A stretch of DNA of 64,000 nucleotides, taken from the NCBI GenBank assembly GCA_036925085.1, contig JAUPFP010000071.1, positions 310,001-374,000 on the forward strand, in the 5' to 3' direction. The DNA is from Brachycybe producta. Its lineage: Eukaryota; Arthropoda; Diplopoda; Playtdesmida; Andrognathidae. Under the pieces are notes generated by a model. The model saw only the letters and a program-made list of their open reading frames with translations, did not search any database and was not told the DNA's origin. Positions 936 through 62,812 of the stretch are shown here, one piece after another (within the stretch, counting starts at the first letter, position 1; every line of letters starts with the position of its first letter). The position numbers were made by a program, and so were the translations under genes.

Positions 936-17041
<16,106 letters not shown>

Positions 17042-26051: not shown

Positions 26052-29000
26052 CTAAAAAAAAATTAAAATAAATCCATCATTTTTGTGTACAAATTCAATA
26101 TTAGATCATTCATTCAATAATTAAAAAAAAATCGTAAAACTCAAGCGATTCTGATGTTTATTTAATATGCAGAATATCGGTCATTTGTGAAAAGATTGAC
26201 ACAACGCAAAAATACTTTAAAAATTTCAATTGAATTAAATTTTTTTATAAACATGAGGCTGGTTTCACACTGTACGATCATGTCACTATCAGATGATAAC
26301 ATGGCTGACCAGCCTTTTTCATTAGAATAAGCATATAGTAATTGCAATTGCTCTACCGATGATGATTAATTCATAATTGGCATTTGGGGCCACAAACTGA
26401 GCCACAAACTTTGCTTGATAAAATCAATAAAAAAAAAGATCCGAGCCCCTTTCTTGCTATCTTATCACGATATTGTATTAAAATAAATGCATCATACAAT
26501 TATTTTTTAACCGTTTCCACTATATATAATAATGCAGATATCAAATTTGTTATTCCGTTCCATGATGGACCACACTAAGTGACAATTACCGTTTTCGAAT
26601 TTCAAATTCAAGCTTGAAATTGTCAAAAATAAAAACATTTTTATGTATTTAATTTCAAATCCAGGATCTGCACACATCAAGAGAGATTAAAGACATTTAA
26701 AAAAAAGTAACAGGATATATTTTTCTAAGTTGAAAAAAAATCTCTTGATAAAATGTACAAAATATCACAAAAAATAAATAAAAATAAATGGAGAAGAGAC
26801 TTTATGGCTTTTATTCTTACTTTTTTTAACAAAAAAAAAAAAGAGAGAAAAAGATAGGATGGAAAAAAAGATAGATACTCATTCATCATCCACAATCTCA
26901 AATCTATTTTCTCTCTCTTGTTTTTTTTTATTAAAAGTAAAATCTTCCAAAATTGAAGGTAAGCTTAAATATGAAACATCCATACAAACAAAAAAAAAAC
27001 ATAGTTAAAACAAACAAGCAAAAACAAAACAAAAAAAATGAAATTTGACAAGAAAAAAAGATAAGGTGTGAAGATTTTGTAAGTTATTAAGAATCTAAAA
27101 GGGGTATAAAAAAGACACTTGTTATCATTATCAGACACTAAAAGAAAAACAGAAGTATGATTGGATTACACTTTAGGGAAAACTGACATGAAAACATCAA
27201 ACGTAAAAAAAACCGCTTCTCGTTCTAGAAATTAAATTTAAATTAGAATTGAATTGAATTGGAGGGCCTTCAATTTTGACACACAGACTAATTAAAATAT
27301 TATTAAATACACCAATGAATTTCAAAGCAACTAATAAATGACACATGCAATTTGGAAACAAAAAAAAATATTATCAATAAGACAGAAAGAATTGTTTTTT
27401 TTTGTAGTCAAAGAGGCTGGTTAGAGGCTAAAGTTAAAATAGAACAAAAATTCAACTGTATTTCAAATTCTAGAAGAGCTCTCTAAACCTTAACTGGCCT
27501 CTTTGATTACAAATAGCATAATTCTTCTTGACTTAAGTTATCACTGTTAAAGTGGAAAATCAATTCTGACCATTTTAGTAACATTTTAGATATTTGCACA
27601 ATTTCTAAAATAGCAATCCAACCTCGTTAAGTTTAGGTTACATTAGAAACTCAGCATACTGCCTATACTTGCGTCGCCCTTAGAGGAAGCTTGTGACTTC
27701 CGAGGGATTAACAAAAAAATGTAGACTTGTGTCTGATAAAAAGGGGTAATGACAAAAGAACGCAAAAATCCTTTTGTTTAAATTATTGAAAACATTTGCT
27801 ATTATCTCTCTATTGTCAGACAAAATGACACAATCCTAATTTTTTCGTTAATTCTTTTGACGTCATAATCTTCATCTAAGGGCGACGCAAGTATAATTGT
27901 GCAGATTTATTACCAAACTTTTTATTTTTGAAAAGTTATTTGGAAATTGACTTTAAACCTTTGGTGGTAATAAGATGTTTATTTAAAAAAATCACGTACC
28001 AAGAACAATTGCTAATGTTTTTGTGGCTTTCCTTTCCTTTTTGGCAGCAGATTTCTCTCTCTTCTTCCGACTGCTCTTGTGACTCCTTGCCAAATGGAAC
28101 CGAGGCCTCTTCCTCCTCGAAGGACTTACGCTACCCGTCCGACCGAGACTGGCTGTCAATTCCGAAGTGGACCTCACCGAGCCTGAAGGATTCCGTAAAG
28201 TCCCATTACGCTTACTTCCCTTAGGATGCCTCTCCAAAGGAGGATTTCTGTGAGGTTCATCTAGACAAGAGTCTCTTCGTATAATGGGAATATCTCCGTG
28301 GAATGGAGTCTCCTCCATTTGAGACGGTCCGTACCCCGAATCACGGTTTCCTCCGTTCGACGTAGGATCTCTGTGCAGTAGAAGCAACGTAGTAGGTGGC
28401 TGTGGTGGTGGCAACGGCGGCGGTGAGGATCTAATTGAAGGTGTGAGGGTGGACGACGTGTGTACCGTTGAACTGGATCGTCCGTCATCTGTCACCACAG
28501 GTCCCAGAATGAACTCCGACGACCGATCGTTATTTACCACATGACACCCCGTGTTAGACAGTTTCTCTTCGAGTTCACCTTCGTCGTCCTCGTTTTCCTG
28601 ACTGCCACTTTCAGTGTTTGCCGTTGGACCATCCGGTTCGAGTGACACGCACAAAGTGACCGTTTCCTTGTAGCGGCACAATGTCTTGCACGTGTGATGA
28701 GCTCCGCCTCCTCCTCCTCCTCCCGGTAACCGTTTCGAGTGCGCCACGTTCTCGATGACGGTATCAACGACGTTCACCGCGTGTGCTCTCTTAGCAGCTG
28801 CCGATTTTTTGGCCCTCTCACGGATCACCTTAAAGATCCGATAATACAAGAGCACCATTATGATACACGGAATGTAAAATGAGCTGAGCGACGAGAAGAT
28901 GATGAAATCAGAGTTGTAAAAAATGCATAGGGAGGGATCACGATTTGGAGTCGTGTTCAGACCCAGAACGATGGGGGTACCAATGGCAGCCGACACCAGC

Positions 29001-31295
29001 CACACGATGGCAATCGTCATGGCTACCCTTCCACTGTTTTTGTGTTTAGCATACTTTATGGGGCGGGTCACTGCAATGAACCTAAAAAATAATATTAAAA
29101 AAAATCAATTAAAAAAATTACAATTTTCGTTATGCAAATAATTTCCTGTCTTGTATTTGCAACAACAGTAGTATTTATTTTAAAAAATAAATGCTAATTA
29201 TTATATTGTTGAAATTCTTTTAAGAAACTTCCTTAAATTATATGATTTTAAATTTTTATAATTGTGTAATTTTTATACTGTGAATTTTATAATAAATTTT
29301 ATAATTATAAAAAAGTAATACATATCATTATAAAACTGTGGTTAAAATTCTAGTATGATTTTTTTATATTTTTTGATAGTTATAATTCGTGAACAGAAAA
29401 TTGCAACGCAAGAATAATAAATCATAAATTTCATCCATAATTTAACAACTTTTATCTAAAAGAAAATGAATTTCTTACATATTCGAATGAAAATTTTATT
29501 TCTTTCTAAACATCTTGATAAATTATTTGAAGAGGCAATTAAATGTTGCAATTACATGATTGTATTGCCTTTTGGTTATCATGCAGCAGTAATAGCTTGT
29601 TTTGATAGCCCTCAAACTGACCACAGTTTGATGAGCTGGTTACAAGTGCTGAATTTCTTTTTTTATATATACCAACTAAAACAATACTTCTGTATTAAGC
29701 CTTTGATTCTACCCTAACCTTATACCAGTAATGGGTGATATGGACACACTAAATTACAAAAAAAAGCATGTGTGTATGTCTTATGTGTATGTGTGTGTGT
29801 GTGACAACCACCAAGGACCACCATTCAAGGTGATGTTTCTAGACTGATAAAGCTGTAAAAAACCTATTCCGAGTGATTCCTTTGTGGCAGGAAGTAGCTT
29901 TAGCTGTGATGGTAATTTTCTACTGGCCATCAAAAGCTTATAAAAAAGGCAAAAAAAAAAACAACACCCCATTGTAGACAGATGGCAAATAGCTGAACGC
30001 GTGTGTCATGTATAATATATATAAAAATGACATCAACACCATATAACAGCTCTTCCACTCAAAATGTGGTTGTTGCATTTATTGATAAAAGTGTCAACAG
30101 AAACAAAATACCTGGAATCCAAAATTTCACAGATATTCTATAGTAAAAGAAGAACAAGACGAGCAAATATGTTTAATATTAAAAAAGATACTTTGACACG
30201 TTTGGTGACATTTTATTTTTTTTTTTTTGCAAAAACATGTTTGGTTGAAAGCAGTGTCACATTTTAAATATTTTTATGTCACCTTTTTCATTTTTTCCCC
30301 ATCATGATAGTCACAACTTGTGTCTTTGAATATAGGATTATGTTAAATACATCATCTTCTAAAACCTCCTAAAAGTATTGAGATTTTGTGTTCACAGTGA
30401 TTGCCCATCTGTCAGGCTGAGTGAACAGTTAAGGTTTAAATATTGCTCAAAGTTTTCAAAGCAAATTTAAGAGAAGAAAAAAAAAACATTAAGTGTTTTA
30501 AAAACTATAAAAAATAGGAATTTCATATAGATTATGACAATTTTGATTTTAGAAATTTATCCGTTTAAAAGAAAATAAAATTATCAAAAAAAAATCTCAA
30601 ATTTTTAAACTGGAATAAAGTTTATTCTTTAAAAAAATGAACATTAAAATGTCCTTACATAATTCTTTTTTACTATAAATTTGTAAAATAATGTTCATGT
30701 TGATTGCTATAAAAAGCAAAGGAAATAAATACGTTTCTGATGATTTTTTTAGTAAAACCCCCCCAAAAATTTATAATTTAAAATTAAAGTAAAAAGTCCA
30801 CGTATTTTAAAAGATACCAATAGGAAAGAAAGTACATTTATTTTCTTCATTTACTAGTCTACTTTCTGAGACACCAAAGTTACTTCTATTTTCTTACTTT
30901 CTATTTTAGCAGCCATTTAACATACGCTCGTAGATAAAAAAAAGTCTCCTAAGACTAAGGATCTTTTTACCCGGCTGTATACATCTCAAACGACAACGAG
31001 CGTTGGAGTAGGAGGCTAGCTAATTAGGAGCGCCTTAAATTGGCACCTTATGGCGCTTAGTACCGGACACCAAATTAACATCCTCTGCCAACAATACACG
31101 CCAAACATAACTACAAAGACGCATTGCTAGCCTCCACCTTCAATCCTCGTGGTTCGTTTGAGATAGAACACGTCTGTTTACTCACCTGTCTATGCTGATA
31201 GCAACCAGGTTAAATATGGACGAAGTGCTACAAGTGACATCCATGGCTATGTAAAAATCACACAAAGTAGGGCTTAAATCCCAGTTGACATTCAC
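25837..31295 (-). CDS. Dop2R: D2-like dopamine receptor (partial, three 3' coding exons)
   Basis: Class A G-protein-coupled receptor for dopamine, expected to couple to Gi/o at the plasma membrane. Exons (- strand order) 31295-31186, 29081-28000 and 26051-25837 splice in frame with GT-AG introns to give 468 residues from just before TM3 to the stop. Hallmarks: TM3 Asp in [14 protein letters not shown], the [16 protein letters not shown] segment spanning a junction, ECL2 Cys in DPSLCIFYN, the TM5 serines in [13 protein letters not shown]6 [10 protein letters not shown] and TM7 NPVIY. The C-tail is very short ([10 protein letters not shown]), typical of D2-like receptors. The third loop is long (about 250 residues) and carries [25 protein letters not shown] and [10 protein letters not shown], resembling fly Dop2R as I recall it. 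TM1-TM2 exons were not found in the window. Orthology to Dop2R is inferred from these motifs. Confidence 0.93.
26335..26452. repeat. MITE-like family C, copy 4 (right half only)
   Basis: Contains TAATTCATAATTGGCATTTG, GGCCACAAACTGAG, TTTGCTTGAT and AAAGATCCGAGCCC, the typical right end of family C. The left half is absent or unrecognisable. Confidence 0.65.
27664..27895. repeat. TA-flanked MITE (about 230 bp)
   Basis: Perfect 18-bp terminal inverted repeats, TACTTGCGTCGCCCTTAG at 27666-27683 and CTAAGGGCGACGCAAGTA at 27876-27893, are flanked by TA on both sides. This looks like a Tc1/mariner-type MITE. It lies in the receptor intron about 105 bp from the exon carrying the third loop. Confidence 0.8.
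28000..29081 (-). CDS. Dop2R: D2-like receptor exon, end of TM3 loop to start of TM6
   Basis: Begins with the last base of the Arg codon of the DRF motif, then [21 protein letters not shown]4 [16 protein letters not shown]2, TM5, and the long third loop ending [15 protein letters not shown]. The loop includes a run of seven glycines, an acidic patch ([11 protein letters not shown]), a Pro-rich stretch near [11 protein letters not shown] and several Ser/Arg clusters suitable for phosphorylation. The donor on the - strand is GTACGT. Frames of 72-98 residues on the opposite strand are shadows. Confidence 0.96.
29082..31185. other. Dopamine receptor intron
   Basis: 2,104 bp intron without exons. 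It is mostly AT-rich, with a GT-run at about 29792-29802 and a MITE at 30984-31163 that ends about 20 bp from the splice donor of the TM3 exon. Confidence 0.75.
30984..31163. repeat. 180 bp MITE beside a splice donor
   Basis: The ends TCTCAAACGACAACGAG and CTCGTGGTTCGTTTGAGA are inverted, and the match continues with gaps to GGAGGCTAGC / GCTAGCCTCC. GC-richer than the surrounding intron. No coding potential. Confidence 0.75.
31186..31295 (-). CDS. Dop2R: D2-like receptor exon with TM3
   Basis: Encodes [19 protein letters not shown] to LVAISIDR, including the ECL1-TM3 Cys of the conserved disulfide and the amine-binding Asp. The donor is GTGAGT on the - strand; the acceptor is TTAATAG. It starts in phase 0, so the missing upstream exon must end at a codon boundary in ECL1. 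Confidence 0.95.
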
Positions 31296-45861: not shown

Positions 45862-46396
45862 TAAGCCAGGTCTGTGTTTGTGAGTGTGTGGTTAACGCTG
45901 TACAATTTATATAAATTTAAATGAATAAATGAACCGCTTTTTTTCTCAAGGTCAACTATATGTTGCACCCTTCCCATCCAAGAACCCCATGATATTAAAT
46001 TGGAGAGGGGGAAAGGTTGGAAAAGGGGGGGGGGGGAGAGAGAGAAACGTGAAGGGGGAAAAAGTATGAGGGGGTGACTGAAATTGAAATGAAAAGAGTA
46101 AAAAAGGAACAAACGGCGCGCATGCACACACCAGAAAAAATGAAAAACTCATTTTCTCTTTCAAATATAAAAAGGGGAGGGGATAATAGTAGCAAAATTA
46201 AACTAGAATTCATTACAGGCAAGTGTGCCCAGCATTAGAATTTCTTTTGCTCCGCCCTTTTATGAACGTCATCAATTTCTAATTGGTTTGTTACTTGGTG
46301 TGACGTCATAAAAGGGCGGAGGAAAAGAAATTCTAATGCTGGGCACAGTTGCCTGTGAATTTTCCTCCCGTCATTTATGACGGGTTACCCCACTAG
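45862..46396 (-). mobile_element. Family A non-autonomous element, copy 2 (with hairpin module)
   Basis: Same architecture as copy 1: - strand start CTAGTGGGGTAACCCGTC (at 46396), hairpin module about 46213-46355, GCATGCGCGCCG, pyrimidine-rich part, GGGTTCTTGGATGGGAAGGG. The low-coordinate end is CCAGGTCTGTGT preceded by TATATATATTAA. The overlapping 70-88 residue ORFs are frames through the pyrimidine-rich part. Confidence 0.85.
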
Positions 46397-49072: not shown

Positions 49073-49220
49073 TAATCAGTAAAACATGTTTTTATGTTGA
49101 AACCTTGGTTTATAGAGAATTCAAGTTGCATTTATTTTCTTCTTCAATTTGGGCTTTAAAGTACTGAAAAATATCCTGAAAATTCTTTATTCAGATCAAA
49201 AGTTGAATAATATAAATATA

Positions 49221-49525
49221 CTAGTGGGATAACCCGTCATAAATGACGGGAGCAAAATTCACAGGCAATTGTGCGCATGCGCGTCGTTTTTTCCTTTTTT
49301 TACTCCTTTCATTTCAATTTCAGTCACCCCCTCCCACTTTTCTCTCTCTCTCCCCTTCTACACTTTCCAACCTTTTCCCCTCACCCCTCCCACTTTTCTC
49401 TCTCTCTCCCCCCTTCTACACTTTCCAAAGGAAGAGTTCAAGATATAGTTGACCTTGAGAAAAAAAAAGGTTCATTTATTCAAATTTATATAAATTCTGA
49501 CGTGCTTCAATGGTTTTTGTTACTC

Positions 49526-54955: not shown

Positions 54956-56092
54956 TTTCATCAACCTATAATAACTTGTTCAAACAATGAGCCAAAAAGA
55001 ATTTTTGACCTGGTTCAACTGAATGCCAATAAAAATAACGAATAATAAAGGAGATCCCCCTTCTACAGTGATCATGAGACTATAACTAATGGGCGCTATC
55101 AACCACCACCATAACTACCACCAATCAATCAATTTAAGATAAAAAAATGCATTTTTCAAAAATGTATATCATTTAATCATTATTCATAGTTATTTTTGTG
55201 TACAATGTACTCATTGTACACGCACTTACATACTGAGGAAATAAATCGTACTTAATCACAAACTTTAAACGAAAAATATACGAGAAATCAATTTTTAGTT
55301 AGAACTTAGAAGAAGAAAAGAAAAACACAAACACATAATTGAAATAGTGAAACTAGTAGGAAAAAAAAAATAATAATAATAATAAAAAAGATTCCATTAG
55401 CGAAGAAAATAAGAAATAAAAAGATTTCAATCAACTGGTGTTAAACATAGAAATTCATAAATAAACAATTTTTCGATTACTTTCCATTATGTTTGAGCTG
55501 ACAACAACATTTCGAGAAAATTATTTCTAAAACCTAATACACCATTTTCAAATTAAAACGCACTCATAAAAAATGAATGAAATAAATAATTCCACTAATT
55601 GCATTTATTTTCTTTTTCGGTGAATCAAAATTAATTCATGAATATGTTTATGAAAATAAGTAAAATTGCGTAATTAAAATAAGAAGCAAATAACTAAAAT
55701 TTTCATGAACTTTTTTTTTGTCTATAAACATTTTTGATGCCATAAAATTACACCATTTGGAACAAACAAATTTGATTTTAGAATAATTAAGTAATTACAG
55801 CATTCGAAGTCAAACATATTTCAAAATTTAAGATCCAATTATATTCTTTAATTTTAATAATTTTCTAAGAAAATGTTGCCTCAAAGCATTCAACTGAAAA
55901 GCAAATGAATATTAATTACTATTTTAAGCGTAATAAGGTGAACAGAAAAATGAAAAGAAAAAAACCCTCACATGTATATATTTTATTTAGTTTTTATATT
56001 TTTTATGTTTTACTTTATGTTTTTACTATTTTATACGGTGGCCGAGAGGTGCAATCCCTATATACAAACACACGACAACACCCAATACTCTA

Positions 56093-56528
56093 CGACAACT
56101 TCCAAAACTCCACGACAACTTCCAAAACTCCACAACAACTTCCAAAACTCCACGACAACTTCCAAAATTCTACGACAACTTTCAAAACCACAACAACTTC
56201 CAAAACTACAACAACTTCCAAAACTACAACAACTTCCAAAACTACAACAACTTCCAAAACTACAACAACTTCCAAAACCACAACAACTTCCAAAACTACA
56301 ACAACTTCCAAAACTACAACAACTTCCAAAACTACAACAACTTCCAAAACTACAACAACTTCCAAAACTACAACAACTTCCAAAACCACAACAACTTCCA
56401 AAACCACAACAACTTCCAAAACCACAACAACTTCCAAAACCACAACAACTTCCAAAACCACAACAACTTCCAAAACCACAACAACTTCCAAAACCACAAC
56501 AACTTCCAAAACTACAACAACTTCCAAA
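56093..56528. repeat. Left-arm tandem array (21-bp then 18-bp units)
   Basis: About five 21-bp units (core ACGACAACTTCCAAAACTC) precede about nineteen 18-bp units ACAACAACTTCCAAAACY. The 18-bp unit is clearly an internally shortened version of the 21-bp unit. Confidence 0.95.
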
Positions 56529-56909
56529 CTTATTAAATATTATTTCATTTATATTTATTTATAATTATTGAATTTAGTATGCATGTGCACACACACACAA
56601 ACGAGTGTGTGTGTACACACTCATTTGTGAGTGCTTGAGCGCGCACGCTCATTTGTGTGTGTGCATGATTGTGAGGTTGTGTGTGTGTTTGCGGTTGTGA
56701 GTGCGTGTGTACGCTCATTTGAGTGTGCATGCGCACGCTCATTTGTGAGTGTGTGTGCACACTCGTTTGTGAGTGTGCGTGTGCGGTTGTGAGTGTGCGT
56801 GTGTATGTTCATGTGAGTGTGCACACACACACGTGTGTGTACACTCAATGGATTGTGAGTGTTTACTACAGATCCCTTTTAGGACATACACTATGTGAAT
56901 TTTTTTCTT

Positions 56910-57320
56910 CGTTTAAACGACCTAGGCACTCGTTTAAACGACCTAGGCACTTGTTTAAACGACCTAGGCACTAGTTTAAACGACCTAGGCACTCGTTTAA
57001 ACAACCTAGGCACTCGTTTAAACGACCTAGGCACTCGTTTAAGCGACCTAGGCAATCGCTTGAGCGACCTAGGCAATCGCTTGAACGACTGCCTAGGTTG
57101 TTTGAACGACTGCCTAGGTCGTTTGAACGACTGCCTAGGTCGTTTGAACGACTGCCTAGGTCGTTTGAACGACTGCCTAGGTCGTTTGAACGACTGCCTA
57201 GGTCGTTTGAACGACTGCCTAGGTCGTTTGAACGACTGCCTAAGTCGTTTGAACGACTGCCTAGGTCGTTTGAACGACTGCCTAAGTCGTTTGAACGACT
57301 GCCTAAGTCGTTTGAATGAA
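56910..57320. repeat. Central 21-bp arrays in opposite orientation
   Basis: Left: about 7-8 units carrying CCTAGG and CGTTTAAACG. Right, from about 57080: about 11 units carrying CCTAGG and CGTTTGAACG with different spacers (GCACT versus ACTGC). Each unit contains two small palindromes. Confidence 0.95.
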
Positions 57321-57759
57321 GGAAAAAAATTTACATAGTGTATGTCTTAAAGGGGATCCATAGTAAACACTCACAATCCATTGAGTGTACACACACGTGT
57401 GTGTGCACACTCAAATGAACATACACACGCACACTCACAACCACACACTCACAGTCACAGTCACAAACGAGTGTGCGCATGCACACTCACAAATGAGCGT
57501 GCGCATGCACACTCACAAATGAGTGTGCGCACGCACACTCAAATGAGCGTACACACGCACTCACAACCACAAACACACACAACCTCACAATCATGCACAC
57601 ACACAAATGAGCGTGCACGCTCAAGCACTCACAAATGAGCGTGCACGCTCAAGCACTCACAAATGAGCGTGTACACACACTAGTTTGTGTGTGTGTGTGC
57701 ACATGCATACTAAATTCAATAATTATAAATAAATATAAATGAAATAATATTTAATAAGT

Positions 57760-58060
57760 TTGGAAGTTGTTGTAGTTTTGGAAGTTGTTGTGGTTTTGGA
57801 AGTTGTTGTGGTTTTGGAAGTTGTTGTGGTTTTGGAAGTTGTTGTAGTTTTGGAAGTTGTTGTAGTTTTGGAAGTTGTTGTAGTTTTGGAAGTTGTTGTA
57901 GTTTTGGAAGTTGTTGTAGTTTTGGAAGTTGTTGTAGTTTTGGAAGTTGTTGTGGTTTTGGAAGTTGTTGTGGTTTTGAAAGTTGTCGTAGAGTTTTGGA
58001 AGTTGTCGTAGAGTTTTGGAAGTTGTCGTAGAGTTTTGGAAGTTGTCGTAGAGTATTGGG
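57760..58060. repeat. Right-arm tandem array (18-bp then 21-bp units)
   Basis: The complement of the left array: about twelve 18-bp units and about four 21-bp units, so this arm is about seven units shorter than the left. Confidence 0.95.
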
Positions 58061-58587
58061 TGTTGTCGTGTGTTTGTATATAGGGATTGCACCTCTCGGC
58101 CACCGTAATTTTAACTATTTTACATACTTTGGGTTTGTATTCCTAATGACTGCAAAGTCAAAGGTAGCGCTAAACTCATCAACTTTTACATGAAAAATCT
58201 TATCAAAAACAGTTTCTGAGTTTATTAGACTACCTCCGAACAAGGGAGTTAGATATATATCACTAATATAACCATACTAGTGGGGTAACCCGTCATAAAT
58301 GACGGGAGCAAAATTCACAGGCAATTGTGTGCATGCGCTTCGTTTTTTCCTTTTTTTTTACTCATTTCACTTCAATTTCAGTCACCCCCTCTCACTTTTC
58401 CCCCCTCCACGTTTCTCTCTCTCTCTCCTCCTTCTACACTTTCCAACCTTTTCCCCTTTCCAATTTAATATCACGGGGTTCTTGGATGGGAAGGGTGCAA
58501 CATATAGCTGACCTTGAGAAAAAAAAGCGGTTCATTTCTTCATTTATTTAAATTTATATAAATTCCGATGTGCTTCAATGGTTGTAC

Positions 58588-61438: not shown

Positions 61439-62258
61439 GTTTATGTAATACCTGACAGTAAGGGAAGAAACACACATTCTGAAAACATCCCAATGCAGAG
61501 GATCATTGAAATATAACTGAATTCCATTTATGAATTTTTATTTTCTGGTGGTTTTTCAACATGTGTGATTCTTCACTAATAAACTTTTGATCTTTGTATC
61601 AGAAATGGTGGCACTGGCTCGATTCACTCGTAGGTAACCAAATAAATATTAACCTCACCAGATAGGAATGTTAAAGACATAAAATATTATTTCCGAAAAT
61701 TCCGGGGATTAAAACTACAGCTATTTTTCCTCTAGAAATCTAAGTGAATCTAACTACATTCTTTTTAGCAATATATTTTCTACTACTCGTAGACATCCCT
61801 ATAGACACACGTATGTACACAATAGTGAACACAAACACACACAAACACATACAAACACTGTATATAACGTTAAAAAGGAAACATGCACACAAACATACAC
61901 AGATGCACCTATTATGCAGTGTGTACACACAACCAGTAGTATATTCACGAGAAACTAAAAAGATGCACATATATGCAATATTAATAATAAAACACATTTG
62001 TAATTTCCCACCATCCACTCACAATTCCAATATTTTGTGAATGTTGCCCTTCAGAGACAACCCCCTCTTTATTGTAAAGAACCAAAAAGATTTTTTTCAA
62101 TATTTTATCTTATTTTCAGCTGTCCACACATAGGTTACATAAATAAAATGAACATACATTTAAACTAAGTAAGGTAGGCTTTTTTTTAAAAAAACTAGAA
62201 AAAAGAAACTTAAGTGCAACTATTTTTCTCCCATCTTTCATGCATTTTTATATAATAA

Positions 62259-62812
62259 CTAGTGGGGTAACCCGTCATAAATGACGAGAGCAAAATTCAC
62301 AGGCAATTGTGCCCAGCATTAGAATTTCTTTTCCTCCGCCCTTTTATGACATCAGACCAAGTAACAAACCCAATTAGAAATTGATGACGTTCATAAAAGG
62401 GCTGAACAAAAGAAATTCTAATGCTGGGCACAATTGCCCATGATAAACTGTAGTTTAATTTTGCTACTATTATCCCCTCCCCTTTTTATATTTGAAAAAG
62501 AAAATGAGTTTTTCATTTTCTCTGGTGTGCGCATGCGCGTCCTTTGTTCCTTTTTTACTCCTTTCATTTCAATTTCAGTCACCCCCTCCCCCTTTTTTCT
62601 CCCTCCACATTTATCTCTCTCCCCCTCCCCCTCCTTCTACACTTTCCAACCTTTTCCCCTCTCCAATTTAATATCATGGGGTTCTTGGATGGGGAGTGTG
62701 CAACATATAGTTGACCTTGAGAAAAAAAGCGGTTCATTTATTTATTTAAATTTATATAAATTGTACAGTGTTAATCGCTCACACCCACACCCACACACAC
62801 AGACCTGGTATT
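62259..62812 (+). mobile_element. Family A non-autonomous element, copy 5 (with hairpin module)
   Basis: Starts CTAGTGGGGTAACCCGTCAT, hairpin module about 62299-62443 (TTCACAGGCAATTGTGCCCA mirrored by TGGGCACAATTGCC), then GCGCATGCGCGTCC, pyrimidine-rich part, GGGTTCTTGGATGGGGAGTG, AGTTGACCTTGAG, a CACACC microsatellite and ACACAGACCTGG. The 141-residue ORF through it is not a gene. Confidence 0.85.

Follow-up and report, generated by a model that had tools for sequence, protein, structure and literature searches.

In the papers cited here, foldback transposons for which a superfamily is named belong to Mutator, as does Tm1 (PMC3169594), or to P, as does Galileo (PMC3573991); these and the other papers named here are cited from extracts of their text. 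The subrepeats of Galileo have been proposed as accessory sites for its transposase (PMC3573991). IS3EU transposons have TA..TA termini and target-site duplications (TSDs) that are usually 6 bp long (PMC10045372), and rust IS3EU elements have terminal inverted repeats (TIRs) of >30 bp, ends of the form TAYGG..CCRTA, and 6-bp TSDs (PMC12730594). Styx has an IS3EU-like transposase, and its gain in copies has been attributed to host repair (PMC10853768).

Here, we analyzed a palindromic element of about 2 kb in a 64,000-nucleotide stretch of DNA from the millipede Brachycybe producta (the window; contig JAUPFP010000071.1, positions 310,001 to 374,000). We consider it probable that this foldback-shaped element is a DNA transposon of the cut-and-paste, non-autonomous kind, moved by an IS3EU-type transposase that is encoded elsewhere.

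Layered architecture of the window element

The element occupies positions 56034 to 58107 of the window (2074 bp) and is an inverted repeat from end to end. Its 25-bp ends (56034 to 56058, plus strand; 58083 to 58107, minus strand) are exactly reverse-complementary, with no further match in the window at up to three mismatches and none in 100 shuffles. When folded as single-stranded DNA, the 2074 nt formed 906 pairs, of which 873 were at most 400 nt off exact mirror symmetry. An earlier interpretation made from the letters of the window (the sequence-only reading) had described a 2.07-kb inverted repeat with exact outer ends, and the identical ends and near-mirror fold confirm this description. 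The ATTTTA that it placed at both ends is an exact match as well, forming the left TSD at 56028 to 56033 and the right TSD at 58108 to 58113 (both given on the plus strand).

Both arms contain the same layers in the same order, given here from the outside inward, with the left arm (plus strand) before the right arm (minus strand). The outermost layer, T, is the TIR, which begins TACGGTGGCCGAGAGGTGCAATCCC... and runs for ~54 bp before the arrays start (T, 56034 to 56087; T', 58054 to 58107). It is followed by an outer array of 20-bp units (a; CTCCACGACAACTTCCAAAA), with five units at 56088 to 56187 and four at 57974 to 58053, the boundaries being placed by eye, and then by an array of 18-bp units (b; CTACAACAACTTCCAAAA), with ~19 units at 56188 to 56528 and 12 at 57758 to 57973. 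Inside these arrays lie an AT-rich spacer (A, unique sequence, 56529 to 56591; A', 57696 to 57757), a GT/CA layer (g, 56592 to 56845 and 57384 to 57695), a unique spacer (J, 56846 to 56901; J', 57328 to 57383), and an inner array of 21-bp units (c; TCGTTTAAACGACCTAGGCAC), which occupies 56909 to 57085 on the left and, inverted, 57086 to 57319 on the right, with the center of symmetry near 57085. The window element therefore has the foldback type of architecture, that is, long inverted arms of tandem subrepeats with little or no middle.

Counting from unit to unit, we found 18-bp steps 19 times in the left arm and 12 times in the right arm, and 20-bp steps 5 and 4 times, respectively, which is close to the unequal numbers of 18-bp units (about 19 versus 12) reported earlier. 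The mirrored, layered arrangement of tandem arrays also stood; the period of 21 bp given for the outer array did not, as it measured 20 bp. By eye, the 18-bp unit could be a 20-bp unit that is two bases short, and a diverged array unit seems to be recognizable in the inner part of T.

The window contains other recognizable features. Part of the right flank of the element (58124 to 58239) belongs to a high-copy repeat, with stretches of ~40 to 120 bp found in dozens of places at 74 to 91% identity. Pieces of a dispersed repeat, ACTAGTGGGGTAACCCGTCATAAATGACGGG...ATATAGCTGACCTTGAG, recur at four or more sites within the final 20 kb of the window (49208 to 49301, 58264 to 58525, 62246 to 62728, and, inverted, 45870 to 46289), and the flanks of other copies of the element partly match it. 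Two coding stretches were identified farther away, one with an ATP-synt_ab domain (3301 to 3783, plus strand; E 7.6e-40), read as V-ATPase subunit-like, and one with a 7tm_1 domain (27992 to 29104, minus strand; E 4.9e-20), which is rhodopsin-type GPCR-like.

Copies, target sites, and structural forms

We searched the host assembly (295 Mb in 442 contigs) for the 23-bp end at up to two mismatches and detected 120 matches (59 forward and 61 reverse; positions listed for 100 of the 120), compared to 0 for a reversed control. The sequence-only reading had proposed a genome search with the outer end as a check, and the result shows that the element is not single-copy. Our sample of copies was drawn from 43 genome stretches around ends. 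Both ends were present in 34 of these, which together with the window element gives 35 paired copies, spanning 0.3 to 5.7 kb. Within the DNA sampled around each, the other nine stretches had a single end only, with the second end sought at up to four substitutions (L031) or up to six (L042, L044 to L047, and L049 to L051).

Directly outside TACGG...CCGTA, 28 of the 35 paired copies have a perfect 6-bp TSD, four have a TSD with one mismatch, and three have none. As a control, we combined the left flank of each copy with the right flanks of the others, and 0 of 1190 combinations were perfect, while 15 of 1190 had one mismatch. Aligning copies in order to define the target duplication, which had also been suggested earlier, thus yields a length of 6 bp. 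All 16 symmetrical copies have a perfect 6-bp duplication, every one different, and their flanks have only stretches of dispersed repeats in common. One copy (L024) is nested inside the end of a sister copy; subtracting the element and one ATATAG leaves a 19-base stretch of uninterrupted sister sequence, GTTTGTATATAGGGATTGC, which represents the empty site (assessed by eye), and the sister end is itself truncated just past the nested insertion.

Because the ends are multicopy, the TSDs are 6 bp long, and one empty site is present, the element is a real DNA transposon, dispersed in many copies, and not an assembly artifact. A palindrome can also arise as an artifact of assembly or as a one-off local inversion, and in keeping with this, our joined-flank search for the window locus detected no allele lacking the element among the 40 of 665 candidates scored in the assembly. 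However, the perfect and mutually different 6-bp duplications around all 16 symmetrical copies rule out chance and local assembly error; artifact or local inversion is refuted as a general explanation, and its probability is practically negligible. The 25-bp end had 0 exact matches to viral contigs. Elsewhere in the assembly, we observed mitochondrial COX1 on contig C442, in which TGA reads as Trp and AGA as Ser, as in the invertebrate code, and COX1-like matches on nuclear contigs (C1:12697416-12698753 and C17:3332011-4029047) that are probably nuclear copies of mitochondrial DNA.

The 16 symmetrical copies, which include the window element, share the layer order T-a-b-A-g-J-c / c'-J'-g'-A'-b'-a'-T' and have no unique middle. 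There are irregularities within this form: one J was undetected in L017, stretches of 30 to 70 bp in c fit no layer in L010, L016, and L017, a 1-kb stretch lies within the right arm of L012, and a and b calls alternate in L010 and L022. Eight copies are asymmetric and have an end variant, ...AATGCC (the TGCC form); the stretch outside the known layers measures 339 to 386 bp in seven of them and 2293 bp in the eighth, L027. The family also includes small forms of 324 bp (L036), 420 bp (L035), and 497 bp (L037), as well as an old MITE of ~120 bp.

Several copies carry additional sequence. In L029, the arms of a complete copy enclose a reverse transcriptase/RNase H fragment (5173 to 6155); the TSD of this copy has one mismatch. 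The right arm of L027 seems to be interrupted at ~7284 to 9009 by an insertion that starts CAGGGTTGG, ends CCACCCTG, and has the flanks TTGTAAAG; by eye, it looks hAT-like. In L047 (2487 to 4277), three arrays follow a family end, with periods of 21 bp (4 units), 23 bp (58 units, GC-rich), and again 21 bp (17 units). The 58-unit and 17-unit arrays differ in sequence from those of the window element; therefore, one family end carries quite different satellites.

Arm lineages and array turnover

We aligned the A-g-J region of 44 arms and constructed a tree from the 30 arms that belong to 15 of the symmetrical copies. One group in the tree consists of one arm from each of 11 copies, with the partner arms elsewhere, and has weak support (78/62). 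We labeled arms as lineage X or Y from the tree in these 11 copies and by looser position in the tree in three more (L016, L020, and L022); L019 falls outside these 14. Two columns of J in the alignment (637 and 642) read C,A in 15 arms, each from a different copy, and T,G in another 27. In the window element, J of the left arm has T,G (lineage Y) and J' of the right arm has C,A (lineage X). One C,A arm is paired with one T,G arm in 14 of the 15 two-armed symmetrical copies, and the rule of one X and one Y is broken by L019, with T,G and C,G. Because the J columns were picked after the arms were labeled, they do not constitute an independent test for the 14 copies; the 13 J-bearing arms of other forms do. 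Twelve of these 13 carry T,G, which we therefore take as ancestral, and the remaining arm (L033) carries T,A. The derived arm (C,A) most likely had a single origin.

Distances between arms were also compared. In a comparison of 12 copies, arms of the same lineage in different copies differ by 0.0205 and 0.018, whereas partner arms of one copy differ by 0.035. No arm among the 30 has its partner as its nearest relative; depending on the arm, 4 to 26 of the remaining 28 are closer to it. At informative sites, X-arm distances correlate with Y-arm distances across 14 copies (r=0.744, 27/20000 permutations) and across 12 copies (r=0.353, 204/20000 permutations). With raw distances, the Mantel test gave a modest correlation for 14 copies (r=0.43, 829/20000) and no correlation for 12 (r=-0.03, 7823/20000). 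Average-linkage clustering of the 15 symmetrical copies into two to four groups produced no X/Y split; at five groups, 11 of the 15 were split across the same two groups, and the other four had one arm apart.

We did not detect gene conversion between the arms of a copy, either in the 16 symmetrical copies (unit-variant sharing of 0.801 versus 0.806 expected, 12987/20000) or in the eight TGCC copies (0.616 versus 0.587 expected, 4223/20000). When all 29 copies were pooled, sharing was above chance (0.682 versus 0.622, 18/20000), an excess that may be due to subfamily structure. We also considered whether the symmetrical copies came from a copied long arm of the TGCC form and found no support for this origin, as the outer spacer region of X arms and Y arms alike lies at a distance of 0.23 from the short arm and 0.34 from the long arm.

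Given that an ancestral and a derived spacer state occur together in 14 of 15 two-armed symmetrical copies, the most likely history is that of one founding palindrome, formed once and transposing whole, whose arms then evolved as separate lineages. The sequence-only reading had offered movement as a palindrome and change of the arrays after the palindrome formed as alternatives, and the evidence favors both.

Over the 29 copies counted, unit steps comprised 501 of 18 bp, 346 of 20 bp, and 21 of some other size. Three X arms, those of L013, L018, and L021, have zero substitutions in the aligned spacer region, where L013 is ~46 bp shorter, but these arms contain 20, 22, and 7 outer units, respectively; most steps measure 20 bp in L013 but 18 bp in L018. 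The inner 21-bp arrays of the same three copies have 6+34, 8+11, and 8+18 units. Substitution-free spacers combined with such unlike unit counts indicate that unit number changes faster than bases. The likely mechanism is slippage or repair after misalignment, acting while the element transposes or shortly afterward. By analogy with the Galileo subrepeats, the 18- and 20-bp units are putative extra transposase-binding sites.

Superfamily assignment and comparison with known systems

In 29 of the 35 paired copies, TACGG is present at both ends, which fits the TAYGG..CCRTA of IS3EU. These copies further resemble IS3EU in their TA..TA termini, in a TIR of >30 bp (~54 bp), and in a 6-bp TSD (28/35 perfect). 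The combination of TACGG...CCGTA, TIR length, and TSD length points to IS3EU rather than to Foldback or Galileo. Because no transposase was found, we infer membership in IS3EU from these features, and we regard it as likely.

The copies that we scanned contained no transposase, and none could be tied to these ends; the longer, transposase-bearing copy that the sequence-only reading suggested looking for was not found. Eight open reading frames from L027, L029, and L032 corresponded to RVT_1, RNase H, or nothing relevant. The transposase expected for IS3EU is an IS3/IS481-like DDE enzyme that lacks an HHCC motif. Searching the genome with an IS481 model gave no candidate above the model cut-off among the 50 of 1865 that were scored. 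Of these 50 places, 49 lie within open frames of 1467 to 4082 aa, which we take for retroelements, and the top place is an rve-domain integrase, retroelement-like in look. Two other candidates were rejected. A 12.6-kb pair of end-like sites on contig C16, considered as an autonomous copy, proved to consist of unrelated sequence on the left and a separate ~120 bp MITE on the right. A possible sibling end family (TATGATGGACGAGAGG..., 587 matches) included, among the 100 of 587 matches listed, a facing pair 4.5 kb apart whose two sites lie in the same type of longer repeat and not in ends of the element family, and we judged the candidate family to be an unrelated dispersed repeat.

That no transposase was identified would also suit an undescribed DDE superfamily sharing TA..TA termini and 6-bp duplications by chance. 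This is unlikely, as TACGG fits TAYGG exactly and both the TIR and TSD lengths fit IS3EU. The termini are TA..TA here, not AG..CT as in Polintons; moreover, the paired copies are just 0.3 to 5.7 kb long, and the eight open reading frames contain nothing beyond the matches given above. A non-autonomous derivative of Polinton/Maverick, which would share the 6-bp TSD (PMC10045372), is therefore very unlikely.

The TSD is 6 bp long, not 9 bp as in Foldback (FB). It likewise differs from the 9 bp of Tm1 (PMC3169594) and the 7 bp of Galileo (PMC3573991), and we regard it as highly improbable that the element is a true relative of Foldback (MULE) or Galileo (P), even though its long inverted arms and internal tandem repeats of varying number recall Galileo (PMC3573991) and Tetris (PMC4079207). 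The likeness to FB/Galileo proposed earlier holds as an analogy of architecture but not as kinship, since the 6-bp TSD and TACGG...CCGTA fit IS3EU and not MULE (FB) or P (Galileo). The foldback-like architecture holds whatever the enzyme.

Under the IS3EU assignment that we favor, an IS3EU-type transposase acting in trans would recognize the TACGGTGGCC... ends and excise the whole 2-kb palindrome, which would then be inserted at a 6-bp staggered cut, producing the TSD; copies might be gained through host repair of the excision gap. We propose more tentatively that an IS3EU-type transposase may routinely mobilize kilobase-scale, near-perfect hairpins with long-lived arm lineages, one ancestral and one derived, whose arrays change size with almost every jump; one TIR would thereby act as a generator of new satellites, of which the 23-bp and 21-bp arrays behind the L047 end may be an example. 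The arm-lineage test distinguishes palindromes that formed once and move whole from palindromes re-formed in each copy. Contrasting substitution-free spacers with unlike unit counts makes it testable whether arrays are resized as the element transposes, which has been proposed as a way in which satellite DNA arises. We found no described IS3EU foldback in the literature searched, although the family may already have an entry in Repbase. Twenty bases of the element end did not occur in the literature text searched, and where "IS3EU" and "foldback" appeared in the same paper, the latter stood only in the title of a reference on Tetris.

In its 6-bp TSD, TA..TA termini, TAYGG..CCRTA ends, and TIR of >30 bp, the element is like the IS3EU/GingerRoot superfamily as described in the extracts cited (PMC10045372, PMC12730594), from which it differs in being a foldback palindrome with layered arrays and in the lack of a transposase in the copies found. 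Styx of Zymoseptoria shares 6-bp TSDs and solo TIRs; its TIRs are 36 bp long, its copies reach ~8 kb and contain coding genes, and the extract describes no foldback (PMC10853768). Galileo, from Drosophila, is similar in its very long inverted arms, its copies consisting of two TIRs only, and arm tandem repeats whose copy number changes in each arm independently of the other, whereas its units are ~210 bp, its TSD is 7 bp, and its transposase belongs to the P superfamily (PMC3573991). Tetris of Drosophila virilis is also an apparently non-autonomous foldback with tandem repeats in its TIRs and a short MITE-like relative with the same ends. However, its units are ~220 bp and founded satellite arrays, and the extract names one repeat layer, compared to the nested 20-, 18-, and 21-bp layers found here (PMC4079207). 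Tm1, a Mutator/Foldback element of root-knot nematodes, has composite inverted repeats of variable length and both MITE-like and longer forms, but its TSD is 9 bp and its transposase is of the Mutator (Phantom) type (PMC3169594). If the assignment to IS3EU is true, it would add a third independent origin of foldbacks to those in Mutator and P, and kilobase-scale hairpins with subrepeat arms would represent a convergent end state of DNA transposons.
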